From: Sphingomonas hankookensis
Lineage (GTDB): Bacteria > Pseudomonadota > Alphaproteobacteria > Sphingomonadales > Sphingomonadaceae
Direction of reading: 5' to 3'
Length of the DNA stretch: 64,000 nt
NCBI RefSeq assembly: GCF_001619955.1
Contig: NZ_LQQO01000034.1
Span: forward strand, 1-64,000
The position numbers and the translations under genes are program-made. The notes under the pieces are model-generated. The model saw only the letters and a program-made list of their open reading frames with translations, had not been told where the DNA came from and ran no database searches. This document shows, one piece after another, positions 13,101-20,267 of the stretch. How positions within the stretch are numbered: the stretch's first letter is position 1; each line of letters begins with the position of its first letter.

Positions 13101-14471
13101 ATGACCCACCGCTTCACCCATCCCGACGCCATCCGCACCCGTTTTTCCGAAGCGATGTCGGCGATGTACCGCGCCGAAGTGCCGCTCTACGGCGACCTGC
13201 TGTCGATCGTGGCGGAGGTGAATGCCGAGATACTCGCCACCCGCCCCGATCTCGCGGCGGAAATGGCCGGCGAACTCGACCGGCTGGACGTCGAGCGCCA
13301 CGGCGCGATCCGGCTGGGCACTGCGGCCGAACTGCACATGATGCGCCGGGCCTTTGCGGTGATGGGGATGTATCCGGTCGGCTATTACGACCTGTCGGTG
13401 GCGGGCGTGCCGGTCCATTCGACCGCCTTCCGTCCGGTTGACGACGATGCGCTGAACGCCAATCCGTTCCGCGTCTTCACCTCACTGCTGCGCCTCGACC
13501 TGATCGAGGACGAAGGGCTGCGGGCGGAGGCGGAAGCGATCCTGTCGACCCGCCGGATCTTCACCGACGAAGCGATCCGCCTGATCGAAAAGGACGCGGC
13601 AGAGGGCGGGCTCGACGATGCCGACGCCGACCGCTTCGTCGCCGAACTGCTCGAAACCTTTCGCTGGCACGGCGATGCACGGGTCGATGCCACGACCTAT
13701 CACCGGCTGCACGACGCCCACCGGCTGATCGCCGACGTCGTGTCGTTCCGCGGGCCGCACATCAACCACCTGACCCCGCGCACGCTCGACATCGATGCGG
13801 CACAGCGCGCGATGCAGGCGCGCGGCATCGATGCGAAGGCGGTGATCGAGGGGCCGCCGCCCCGCGCCGTGCCGATCCTGCTGCGCCAGACCAGTTTCAA
13901 GGCAATCGAGGAGGACGTGACCTTTCCCGGCGACCAGCCCGGCCAGCACACCGCCCGCTTCGGCGAGATCGAACAGCGCGGCGCCGCGCTGACGCCCAAG
14001 GGCCGCGCGCTGTACGACCGGTTGCTGGCCACCGCCCGCGGCGAACAGGGGTCGCAGGGGGCCAGCTATGCCGAACGGCTCGCCACCGCCTTCACCGCCT
14101 TTCCCGACACGATCGAGGAACTTCGCGAACAGGGCCTCGCCTGGTTCCGCTACGACCTGACCGACGCCGGGCAGCGGCTGGTGGGCAGCGGGGTTCGCCC
14201 GGCCGGCGATATCGATGCGTGGGTGGCGGCGGGCCATGTCCGCGCCGTGCCGATCGTGTACGAGGATTTCCTGCCGGTCAGCGCCGCCGGCATCTTCCAG
14301 TCGAACCTGGGCGGCACCGAACAGCGCAGCTATGCCGCATCGGCGGCCCGTGCCGCGTTCGAGGACGCGATGGGCGATGCGGTGCAGGACGAACTCGCGC
14401 TCTATGCCGACATGGAGGCACGCTCGATCATGACGGTCCGCGAAGCCTTGCGGGGGGTCGCGGCGGCCTGA
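13101..14471 (+). CDS. hglS: 2-oxoadipate dioxygenase/decarboxylase (HglS/YdcJ, DUF1338)
   Basis: A 456-residue protein of the VOC-related DUF1338 family. Characterised members (Pseudomonas putida HglS) are Fe(II) enzymes converting 2-oxoadipate to D-2-hydroxyglutarate with loss of CO2. Visible family features: His79 with Arg83 in ELHMMRRAF (the first metal His and the substrate-gripping Arg four residues on), the HINHLTPRTLDID block with further His residues, and LPVSAAGIFQSN near the C-terminus with the Val-Ser pair of the specificity pocket. The start at 13101 has GAAGG upstream. Its stop overlaps the next start as TGATG. Placement directly before a D-2-hydroxyglutarate dehydrogenase strongly supports the assignment. 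Confidence 0.9.
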   Translation: MTHRFTHPDAIRTRFSEAMSAMYRAEVPLYGDLLSIVAEVNAEILATRPDLAAEMAGELDRLDVERHGAIRLGTAAELHMMRRAFAVMGMYPVGYYDLSVAGVPVHSTAFRPVDDDALNANPFRVFTSLLRLDLIEDEGLRAEAEAILSTRRIFTDEAIRLIEKDAAEGGLDDADADRFVAELLETFRWHGDARVDATTYHRLHDAHRLIADVVSFRGPHINHLTPRTLDIDAAQRAMQARGIDAKAVIEGPPPRAVPILLRQTSFKAIEEDVTFPGDQPGQHTARFGEIEQRGAALTPKGRALYDRLLATARGEQGSQGASYAERLATAFTAFPDTIEELREQGLAWFRYDLTDAGQRLVGSGVRPAGDIDAWVAAGHVRAVPIVYEDFLPVSAAGIFQSNLGGTEQRSYAASAARAAFEDAMGDAVQDELALYADMEARSIMTVREALRGVAAA

Positions 14472-17400
14472 TGGCGGCGGTCGCCAATCTGCTGCGCCGT
14501 CTGGATCAGGCGGGCTTTTCCGGCGATGCCGAGGACGGCATCGGCGCGCGGCAGGTCGCATCGACCGACAACAGCATCTATCAGGTTCGCCCGACCGCGA
14601 TCCTCTATCCGTGCCGCGGCGACGATGTGACGCTGCTGGTGCGCGCACTCGCCGACACCGGCCTGTCGCTGACGGCGCGTGGCGGCAATACCGGCACCAA
14701 CGGCCAGTCGCTGAACGACGGGATCATCGTCGATTTCGCCCGCCACATGCGGGGGATCGGCGCGTTCGATCCCGACACGGATACGATCACCGTCGAACCG
14801 GGCGTCGTGCTCGACCAGCTCAATGCCTTCCTCAAACCCCATGGCCGCTTCTTCCCGCCGATGGTGTCGACCGCCAGCCGCGCGACGATCGGCGGCATGG
14901 TCGCGACCGATGCATCGGGCAAGGGATCGCGCCGCTGGGGCAAGACGTCGGACTATCTCGTCGCGCTCGACGTCACCCTGTCCGACGGCACGCCGTGGCG
15001 CGTCGAACCGATGACGCGTGCCGAGGCCGAGGCGATCGCCGCCGGTAGCGGCATCGTCGCCGACATCCACCGCGAGGCGCTGCGCATCGTCACCAGCCGC
15101 GCCGACGATATCGCCGCGATCTTCCCGGACATGAACCGCGGTCTGACCGGCTATAATCTGCAAAAGACATGGGATGCGGCCGCCGACCGTTTCTTCCTCG
15201 GGTTCCTGCTCGCCGGGTCCGAAGGCACGCTCGCGATCACCCGTTCGATCACGCTACGCGTCGCCCATAAGCCGAAGAAGCGCGCGCTGGCGGTCATCCG
15301 CTACGCCGCGTTCGACACCGCGATGCGCGACGTGCAGCGCCTGATCGCCGCCGATCCGGTCGCGATCGAAATCCTCGACGACAAGGTGCTGGGCGTCGCG
15401 CGCAGCGATATCATCTGGTCGAGCGTCGAAGGGCTGCTCGGCGGTGCGAGCGATGTGGTCGGTAAGTCTGATCCGGCACAGCCGGATCAGCACGGTGCCG
15501 GCCCGCTCCCCCACCCGACCACCCAGTCAGAATACGCTGTGGGTGGTCGGGTGGGGGAGCGGGCCGGCACCGCATCCTCTTCCGAGGATCAGACTCTCGC
15601 CGCGATGAACTTCGTCGAGTTTGCCGCCGACGACAACGCGACGATCGACGCCGGCCTCGCCGCACTGACCGCCATCGGTCCGCAGGGCGACATGCGCATC
15701 ATCCGCGACGATGCCGCCATCGGCCAGCTCTGGACGCTGCGGGAAAAGTCGGTCGGGCTGCTCGCCCGGCTCGGCGGCGCGCGACAGGGGATTCCGTTCG
15801 TCGAGGATACCGCTGTCCCGCCCGAAAAGCTCGCCGATTTCGTCGCCGAGTTCCGCGCGCTGCTCGACGGCCACGGCCTGAACTACGGCATGTTCGGCCA
15901 TGCCGATGTCGGCTGCCTCCACGTCCGCCCGTTCCTCGACCTGCGCGATCCTGCACAGGCGGCGCTGATCCGCCCGATCTCCGATGAAGTGGCGCGCCTG
16001 ACCAAGGCCTATGGCGGTCTGCTCTGGGGAGAACATGGTCGCGGCTATCGCGGCGAATTTTCGCCGCTGTTCTTCGGCAGCCTCTATCCCGAATTGCAGT
16101 CGCTGAAAGCCGCGTTCGACCCGCATAACCGCTTCAACCCCGGCAAGCTCGCCGCTCCCGCCGGGCAGCCCGTCGACCGGATCGACGGCGTGCCCTTGCG
16201 CGGTGAAGCCGACCGGCAAATCGATCCGGCCCGCGCGAAGGACTTCGACCGCGCGGTCGCGTGCAACGGCAATGGCGCGTGCTTCGCCTGGGACTCGCTC
16301 GACGTGATGTGCCCGTCCTACAAGGCAACGCGCGACCGCGCGCAATCGCCCAAGGGCCGCGCCTCGCTGCTGCGTGCCTGGGCCCGGCTGGATTCGATCG
16401 CGCAACCCAGCCCGGCCGAAGCCGCCGAACGCGACGCGCTGGCCGCCGACACCCATGCCTCGCTCGCCACCTGCCTGTCGTGCAAGGCGTGCACCACGCT
16501 CTGCCCGGTCAAGGTCGACGTGCCGGTGATGAAGTCTCGCTTCGCCGAACGCCACTGGGCCAAACGCCCCCGTCCGCTGCGCCACCGCGTCGTCGCGCAG
16601 ATGGAATCGATGCTCGCCGCCGCGCGCGCCATGCCGGGGCTCGCCAACCGCGTCGCCGACAGCGAGCGGGCGCACGCCGCGCTGGAACGCACGCTCGGCT
16701 ATGTCGACCTGCCCCCCTTCGCTGTCGCCGACCCCGGCACCCTGCCGCCAGTCGCCTCGCCAGCAAAGCTCAAGGCGCTACCGGCCGAGGAACGCGCGCG
16801 CGTGGTCGTGCTGGTCGAAGACAGCTTCACCGCCAGCTTCGACGGCCCCGTCATCGCCGCCGCCGCCCGGGTGCTGACCGCCTGCGGCTATCGCGTGCTG
16901 CGCCTGCCGCCGCGCAGCAACGGCAAGGTGCTGTACCTGCTGGGGCTACGCACCCGCTTCGCCCGCATCGCGCGCCGGCGGATGGCGGAAGCCCGCGCGC
17001 TGGCCGATCTGGGCGTGCGGCTGACCGGACCGGACGCCGCCACCGCGCTGATGTTCGGCCAGGAATTTGCCGAGATGACCGGCGACAGCGTCGACGTGAC
17101 GGGCCTCGAAACCCTCATCGCCGAAGCGGTCAGCCACGGCCGCGCACCCACCGCGACGCAAACCGTCCCGGCCCAGCGCCTGCTCGGCCACTGCACCGAA
17201 CAGGCGCTCCGCCCGCAGGCGCTGGCGACCTGGGCACAGGCACTGGCCGGCTTCGGCATCACCGCCACCCCAATCAAAACGGGGTGTTGCGGCATGGCGG
17301 GGCTGTTCGGCCACGAAGCGGCGAACCAGAAACTGTCGCGCGACATCTTCGCGCTCAGCTGGGCGGACGCGACGCAGGACGATGCGATGCTCGCCACCGG

Positions 17401-17488
17401 CTTCTCCTGCCGCTGCCAGACCAAACGCCTGACCGGCCGCCGCCCGCTGCATCCCGTCGAGCTGATCGACCGGGTGCTGGCGGGGTAG
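14471..17488 (+). CDS. FAD/Fe-S D-2-hydroxyglutarate dehydrogenase (YdiJ-like) with in-frame palindromic insert
   Basis: A 1005-residue fusion oxidoreductase. The N-terminal PCMH-type FAD-binding domain (ARGGNTGTNGQS, SRATIGGMVATDASGKGS, FLLAGSEGTLAI) is followed by an FAD-oxidase C-terminal domain ending near PHNRFNPGKL. Then come two 4Fe-4S-type Cys clusters (CNGNGACFAWDSLDVMCPS and CLSCKACTTLCPVK) and a CCG-like domain (TGCCGMAGLFGHE). E. coli YdiJ-type enzymes (about 1018 aa) oxidise D-2-hydroxyglutarate to 2-oxoglutarate and pass electrons to the respiratory chain. The oddity is residues about 332-375, a foreign, low-complexity stretch encoded by a multi-stem palindrome (15465-15595), yet the frame stays open through it. 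Last gene of the operon. Confidence 0.92.
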   Translation: MAAVANLLRRLDQAGFSGDAEDGIGARQVASTDNSIYQVRPTAILYPCRGDDVTLLVRALADTGLSLTARGGNTGTNGQSLNDGIIVDFARHMRGIGAFDPDTDTITVEPGVVLDQLNAFLKPHGRFFPPMVSTASRATIGGMVATDASGKGSRRWGKTSDYLVALDVTLSDGTPWRVEPMTRAEAEAIAAGSGIVADIHREALRIVTSRADDIAAIFPDMNRGLTGYNLQKTWDAAADRFFLGFLLAGSEGTLAITRSITLRVAHKPKKRALAVIRYAAFDTAMRDVQRLIAADPVAIEILDDKVLGVARSDIIWSSVEGLLGGASDVVGKSDPAQPDQHGAGPLPHPTTQSEYAVGGRVGERAGTASSSEDQTLAAMNFVEFAADDNATIDAGLAALTAIGPQGDMRIIRDDAAIGQLWTLREKSVGLLARLGGARQGIPFVEDTAVPPEKLADFVAEFRALLDGHGLNYGMFGHADVGCLHVRPFLDLRDPAQAALIRPISDEVARLTKAYGGLLWGEHGRGYRGEFSPLFFGSLYPELQSLKAAFDPHNRFNPGKLAAPAGQPVDRIDGVPLRGEADRQIDPARAKDFDRAVACNGNGACFAWDSLDVMCPSYKATRDRAQSPKGRASLLRAWARLDSIAQPSPAEAAERDALAADTHASLATCLSCKACTTLCPVKVDVPVMKSRFAERHWAKRPRPLRHRVVAQMESMLAAARAMPGLANRVADSERAHAALERTLGYVDLPPFAVADPGTLPPVASPAKLKALPAEERARVVVLVEDSFTASFDGPVIAAAARVLTACGYRVLRLPPRSNGKVLYLLGLRTRFARIARRRMAEARALADLGVRLTGPDAATALMFGQEFAEMTGDSVDVTGLETLIAEAVSHGRAPTATQTVPAQRLLGHCTEQALRPQALATWAQALAGFGITATPIKTGCCGMAGLFGHEAANQKLSRDIFALSWADATQDDAMLATGFSCRCQTKRLTGRRPLHPVELIDRVLAG
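15465..15595. repeat. multi-stem palindromic element inside a coding region
   Basis: A 131-bp element bounded by 10-bp inverted ends, AGTCTGATCC (15465-15474) and GGATCAGACT (15586-15595). Inside are a perfect 32-bp inverted repeat (15494-15525 against 15540-15571, loop of 14) and a smaller stem CTGATCCGGC-ACA-GCCGGATCAG (15468-15490). It encodes about 43 residues read in frame within the dehydrogenase gene. The flanking protein sequence reads straight from the FAD-oxidase domain on one side to AAMNFVEFAAD on the other, as expected if it were inserted. It behaves like the palindromic protein-embedded elements known from Rickettsia (RPE), though no relationship is claimed. Confidence 0.85.
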
Positions 17489-17499
17489 CTCCCCTCCCC

Positions 17500-17533
17500 G
17501 TCACCCCGGGCTTGACCCGGGGTCCCGCTTCTT
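17500..17533. repeat. family A repeat, half copy
   Basis: A single arm of the family A palindrome (GTCACCCCGGGCTTGACCCG, continuing GGGTCCCGCTTCTT) just after the dehydrogenase stop. The opposite arm is missing; the MITE-like element begins 6 bp further on and may have interrupted it. The hairpin could also serve as a transcription terminator for the operon. Confidence 0.75.
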
Positions 17534-20184: not shown

Positions 20185-20267
20185 GTCACCCCGGGCTCGA
20201 CCCGGGGTCCCGCTTCTTCGTCCACCGCCAGTTGAAAAGCGGGACCCCGGATCAAGTCCGGGGTGAC
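20185..20267. repeat. family A palindromic repeat, copy 3
   Basis: A full two-armed copy: GTCACCCCGGGCTCGACCCG with its continuation on the left and GACCCCGGATCAAGTCCGGG on the right, with about 20 bp between. It lies in the 144-bp gap between the phosphohexomutase and exonuclease genes (both minus strand) and could terminate the upstream transcript. Confidence 0.85.

Follow-up and report, generated by a model that had tools for sequence, protein, structure and literature searches.

A gene for a YdiJ-like FAD-linked oxidase in Sphingomonas hankookensis carries, in frame, a palindromic insertion that belongs to a dispersed family of hairpins. It lies in the window, by which we mean the whole stretch of 64,000 nucleotides that was analysed. 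We give a probability of roughly 78% to the reading that the segment is a non-autonomous mobile hairpin (MITE) that was inserted in frame, probably by an IS5/IS1031-like transposase, and is carried as a disordered loop. The insertion is a rare accident of a known type and not a new kind of system, and it offers a clean full-site and empty-site example, outside Rickettsia, of a mobile hairpin joining an open reading frame. The more interesting lead is the link of the hairpin family to gene ends.

The following features of the window are referred to throughout.

14471..17488, plus strand: host gene, YdiJ-like FAD-linked oxidase with 4Fe-4S domain (open reading frame and Pfam; 1005 codons including the insert)
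15459..15461, no strand: TCG, possible left copy of a 3-bp target duplication (from the sequence; possibly by chance, as the left flank differs from that of relatives)
15462..15596, plus strand: inserted unit of 135 nt in its most likely limits, as judged from the closest orthologue without the insert; its left boundary could shift by a few bases
15465..15474, plus strand: left inverted end AGTCTGATCC, 10 bp, degenerate GAGNCYG-type
15468..15490, plus strand: left outer hairpin (sequence and fold)
15493..15525, plus strand: 5' arm of the core hairpin, 33 bp, perfect
15526..15539, plus strand: core loop, 14 nt, with a recurring motif that reads AGAATAC here and AGGATAC in many copies
15540..15572, plus strand: 3' arm of the core hairpin, 33 bp, perfect
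15574..15589, plus strand: right outer hairpin (from the fold)
15586..15595, minus strand: right inverted end GGATCAGACT, 10 bp
15597..15599, no strand: TCG, possible right copy of the duplication (from the sequence; also present in the empty site)

As to its origin, an IS5/IS1031-like transposase would once have moved the element by way of its GAGNCYG-type ends, duplicating 3 bp, and this copy would have landed in a turn of the flavoprotein between a helix and a strand, away from the sites after stop codons that the family usually occupies. Because element and duplication together would amount to a multiple of three with no stop in frame, the gene stayed open with 45 extra codons; these would be carried as a disordered loop, most likely without a function of its own.

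Insertion and empty sites

The segment is absent from all 29 aligned homologues, which were drawn from 74 loci found in a scan of named genomes and include sequences of alphaproteobacteria, gammaproteobacteria and cyanobacteria. The expectation of the sequence-only reading that exactly this segment is missing from homologues thus holds, and none of the 29 is a distant homologue that carries the segment without the palindrome. Sphingomonas orthologues read, for example, ASDAPVAAMNF where the window reads ASDVV...TLAAMNF. When 295 genus genomes were searched with 701 bases around the insert, both flanks were found, among the matches listed (down to an E value near 1e-21), in 13 genomes: that of the window, a second one of the same species and 11 others; G344 had one flank only among these matches. 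In all 11 other Sphingomonas genomes with both flanks listed there is no insert and at most 14 unaligned bases lie between the flanks. Among the species examined, the insert is restricted to one. An assembly artefact could be rejected, since the second assembly of the species carries the insert within 3701 nt that match exactly and has 2 mismatches over 26 kb; this assembly is too close to the window genome to inform on conservation.

The closest empty site reads GATG-CCCCCG-TCGCCGCG, and the window reads GATG-TGGTCG-GTAAGTCTG...CAGACTC-TCGCCGCG. The simplest reading of these letters, and the most likely one, is a unit of 135 nt (15462-15596) between TCG and TCG. As the host gene exceeds the closest empty orthologue by 135 nt, the inserted unit is slightly longer than the 131 bp of the palindrome. 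The frame of the enzyme gene is kept, as had been claimed from the sequence; the gain is 45 codons rather than about 43 residues.

Host protein and predicted fold

The host frame is open over 1005 codons starting at the ATG at 14471 (ORF analysis), and its product has the Pfam domains FAD_binding_4, FAD-oxidase_C, Fer4_8 and Fer4_17; the gene name YdiJ was adopted from the sequence-only reading. FAD-oxidase_C is matched as one stretch, residues 267-560, that runs across the insert. Against the orthologue of Leaf32 (L052), 960 codons could be aligned with 89% amino-acid identity, and the extra 45 codons of the host form a single block. The dN/dS of 0.16 for this comparison mostly reflects the time before insertion. 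The predicted model of the host protein has a mean pLDDT of 86.5. Residues 326-373 fall below 50 and form a loop between a helix (314-323) and a strand (378-386), the low values being due in part to the fact that no aligned sequences exist for this segment. The model is compatible with a disordered, tolerated loop in an otherwise confidently predicted enzyme.

The multi-stem palindrome of 131 bp with 10-bp inverted ends is real and is composed of an inner hairpin and two outer hairpins. Its inner repeat is perfect, as first described, with arms that measure 33 bp and not 32 bp. The strong RNA hairpin that had been postulated is supported by computation: the 131 nt fold with -113.4 kcal/mol compared to a shuffle mean of -55.1 (z -14.1), and 0 of 200 shuffles fold as well. 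We infer that translation proceeds through this hairpin and that the enzyme tolerates the additional loop. A very stable hairpin could also end transcription or stall ribosomes, in which case the insertion would silence the gene and the open frame would be that of a recent pseudogene or a weakened allele. Such an outcome would fit with the position of most family copies behind gene ends, where a transcript end is expected, and with an insert that, among the species examined, is found in this one alone and so may be recent. However, the 1005 codons contain neither a stop nor a frameshift, conserved residues and domains are kept, and no T-run of the kind found in intrinsic terminators is seen 3' of the core in the window. 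We therefore regard silencing as unlikely and prefer the reading as a tolerated loop.

Two short REP-like palindromes occur elsewhere in the window, one at 17503-17530 directly behind the host gene's stop codon (recognised by eye) and one at 20202-20250 with perfect arms of 14 bp.

A dispersed hairpin family

The genome of the window holds 12 core places and one fragment (25 rows, as the palindrome is matched on both strands). A covariance model of the core (R2), built from 10 aligned copies of this genome, matches 35 of the 61 genomes searched in the genus at an E value of 1e-6; at 1e-7 it matches 60 of 149 genomes of the family, which represent 46 of the 91 genera sampled. The supposition that related copies are dispersed in sphingomonads is thereby confirmed. 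Across the class, the model has matches in 9 of 114 genomes, the genome of the window included. Twenty copies from six non-sphingomonad genomes have the core arms in common and often also the loop, and two plasmid records, one from Novosphingobium resinovorum and one from Sphingomonas sanguinis, contain partial matches, the best place having no annotated gene. Elements are about 130-155 bp long, consist for the most part of a conserved 80-nt hairpin and have no coding capacity for a transposase. An Rfam scan of six loci returned nothing at the gathering score, and the matches below threshold are mainly to microRNA hairpins. Among the papers searched, largely from outside subscription journals, none contains the letters of the core, and the titles and abstracts listed there for sphingomonad MITEs and palindromic repeats do not describe the family. 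The hairpin family is widespread and apparently unnamed.

The copies compared in the following are not a random sample; they comprise the best-scoring ones from the genus genomes and those met via protein matches. At stem positions 4, 5, 8, 21, 25, 26 and 29, copies differ in the Watson-Crick pair. Pairs were counted in the 91 of 105 copies with both anchors (14 lacked them) for the six commonest types per position; at stem position 4, for example, C-G occurs 51 times, T-A 34 times and 6 copies are unpaired. Five pairs of loci that have both flanks in common were aligned. A clear set of compensated changes is present in only one of them, L220/L231, which has the same neighbours in two genomes and shows such changes in both the core and an outer hairpin; the other four are mixed or hard to align. 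Either selection or replication errors that correct palindromes would give a stem that stays paired. The outer hairpins vary widely among copies.

In two copies (L010:2030-2109 and L011:1990-2069) the loop points the other way with respect to the outer hairpins, as though the hairpin were able to flip, and a third (L015:1900-2050) has a further palindromic stretch nested in one core arm.

Ends, target duplications and candidate transposases

When inverted ends were sought automatically in 105 copies, 17 copies came up, several of them by chance, and the pattern GAGNCYGWT was used instead. Both ends are intact in 7 of 163 copies, most of which have no recognisable intact pair. Six of the seven are flanked by identical 3 bp, TGA or TCA, and three of these six belong to one non-sphingomonad genome. 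IS1031 elements have TNA targets and duplicate 3 bp, according to the available part of PMC12016507. The ends and the duplications fit IS1031-type transposition into TNA for the family, but not for the window copy, whose possible TCG duplication mismatches TNA and whose own ends are degenerate.

With MITEs that have IS5/IS1031-type ends, the family shares the short length, the dispersal, the lack of a transposase gene and the inverted GAGNCYG... ends. Duplications of 3 bp of the TNA type flank 6 of the 7 copies with intact ends, and the window copy has a possible TCG. Unlike these MITEs, the element consists mainly of a conserved hairpin of 80 nt and not of the remains of an IS. An autonomous element with these ends is not required for non-autonomous elements, and none was found: in 8 genomes, no end pair of the exact pattern encloses an IS, and with an earlier end pattern, no pair of IS length surrounds a transposase in 4 genomes. 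A further end pattern, AGTCTGATCCNGC, occurs at 12 places, most of which resemble ordinary sequence by eye; one of them, L124, is a second element described below.

The transposase families searched were DUF4096 and, in the genome of the window, Y1_Tnp. The IS elements with DUF4096 (36 matches in 7 of 9 genomes) were rejected as the mover: the 30 of 36 loci that were inspected have other ends (such as TAGGGTCGGGAC) or none that are convincing. A RAYT origin was rejected as well, with 0 matches to PF01797 (Y1_Tnp) in the genome of the window and a positive control in 5 of 14 genomes.

One genome (G245) contains seven end pairs that are about 140 bp apart and two that are just 46 bp apart (G245:C1:2764965-2765010 and 4498999-4499044). 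The latter have no room for the core, and the ends alone seem to form small palindromes. At another locus (L124; G000:C1:378070-378700), a second element of about 82 bp has the ends AGTCTGATCC and GGATCAGACT but lacks the core hairpin, its interior being different and REP-like. At L170:47-2700 (G049:C1:3262097-3264668), two copies separated by 2.6 kb have their outward ends intact.

Copies inside genes

Position relative to genes could be evaluated for 135 copies (105 first copies minus 6 near an edge, and 38 second copies minus 2, L325 being without the core). Only two of them are in frame inside a gene: the window copy and a weaker case, L212, from a different Sphingomonas genome, where the gene is esterase-like. 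Among the 105 first copies, the window, L212 and L203 passed the in-gene score, and none of the 38 further copies did. L203 was rejected since the best score of its left flank is on the opposite strand and there is a start codon after the copy. Eight more (L138, L165, L186, L201, L206, L229, L319 and L320) were not counted because one flank is non-coding in the open frame. For L212, two homologues without the stretch have 36% and 32% identity; no Pfam domain is matched by the part with the insert itself, and the part past an N-run matches Esterase. The N-run, together with a partial repeat of the gene's upstream part (L212:1758-2860), may be a scaffolding error caused by the hairpin.

The sequence-only reading had compared the segment to the RPEs of Rickettsia. 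According to the available text of PMC10969869, RPEs are about 150 bp long and nearly half of them are inside genes. The window copy resembles those described there in being palindromic, about 130-150 bp long and in frame in an enzyme gene whose homologues are without it. It would be an RPE-like system if the element were shaped for proteins, with a favoured coding frame and repeated in-frame insertion, and both in-gene copies indeed read the element in one frame (PLPHP...GGRVGERAG). With three frames to choose from, however, agreement between two copies is no evidence of a preference, and the 2 of 135 evaluable copies that are in frame in genes compare poorly with the nearly half given in the same available text. 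Host and setting are unrelated, no favoured peptide is apparent, and the remaining readable copies adjoin gene ends. As the core is open in at least three of the six frames in all 105 tested copies, its translatability is nothing special. The RPE framing did not survive these counts, and we consider such a system very improbable. The idea that an old, conserved stretch of the enzyme happens to be palindromic here can be dismissed, because the segment is missing from the 29 aligned homologues and the 11 genus genomes and the same DNA motif occurs at non-coding places.

The sequence-only reading had known of no sphingomonad example of a palindrome translated in frame. We take E. lithoralis and S. 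alaskensis to be sphingomonads. The accessible part of PMC3733652 reports palindromic repeats in tRNA-synthetase and truB genes of these two species, so that sphingomonads with in-frame palindromes have been published before. ERIC and further enterobacterial repeats known from ORF fusions are, as far as the accessible text of PMC2759123 goes, likewise normally intergenic with occasional in-gene copies, and differ in sequence and host group.

Position beside stop codons

Coding signal was scored by a model trained in this analysis and not taken from annotation. It is clear on both sides of 104 of the 135 evaluable copies and not of the other 31. The 104 comprise 63 between genes of the same direction, 29 between convergent and 12 between divergent genes (p 0.012 for convergent versus divergent). 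Where a gene end points at a copy (121 cases), the median distance from stop to core is 24 nt in raw counts, with 106 within 0-40 nt, 115 within 0-80 nt and 3 beyond 80 nt; 3 of the 121 read into the copy, the window included. A start could be read in 58 unidirectional gaps, and in 43 of these the copy is nearer to the stop than to the closest possible start. The orientation of the loop shows no bias with respect to transcription in unidirectional gaps (31 same, 32 opposite).

REPs, including those of sphingomonads, have been described inside ORFs and in the vicinity of stop codons, and more often between convergent than divergent genes (PMC3733652, available part). The family resembles the GTAG and CGTC REPs of that text in forming hairpins beside gene ends and sometimes inside ORFs, and in the excess of convergent over divergent sites. 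Its stem of 33 bp contrasts with the 8-9 bp given there for CGTC REPs. Unlike REPs, it has 3-bp duplications at copies with intact ends, and the genome of the window is without RAYT.

We tentatively raise the possibility, which we do not favour, that the hairpin family is a portable 3'-end module placed at stop codons via TNA targeting. It could serve upstream genes as a two-way transcript end or as a stabiliser of their mRNA, with the 33-bp stem kept paired through both-sided changes across species and the window copy as a rare case within a protein. Under this reading, the choice of TNA targets would lead to sites at stop codons, since TGA and TAA fit TNA. If the stem marks transcript ends, this would have consequences for how operons and 3' ends are annotated in sphingomonads, and TNA targeting would account for the ability of mobile elements to seed 3' ends.

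One copy (L186:2504-2582) lies directly before the gene for RnpA and is open into its frame, probably before the true start.
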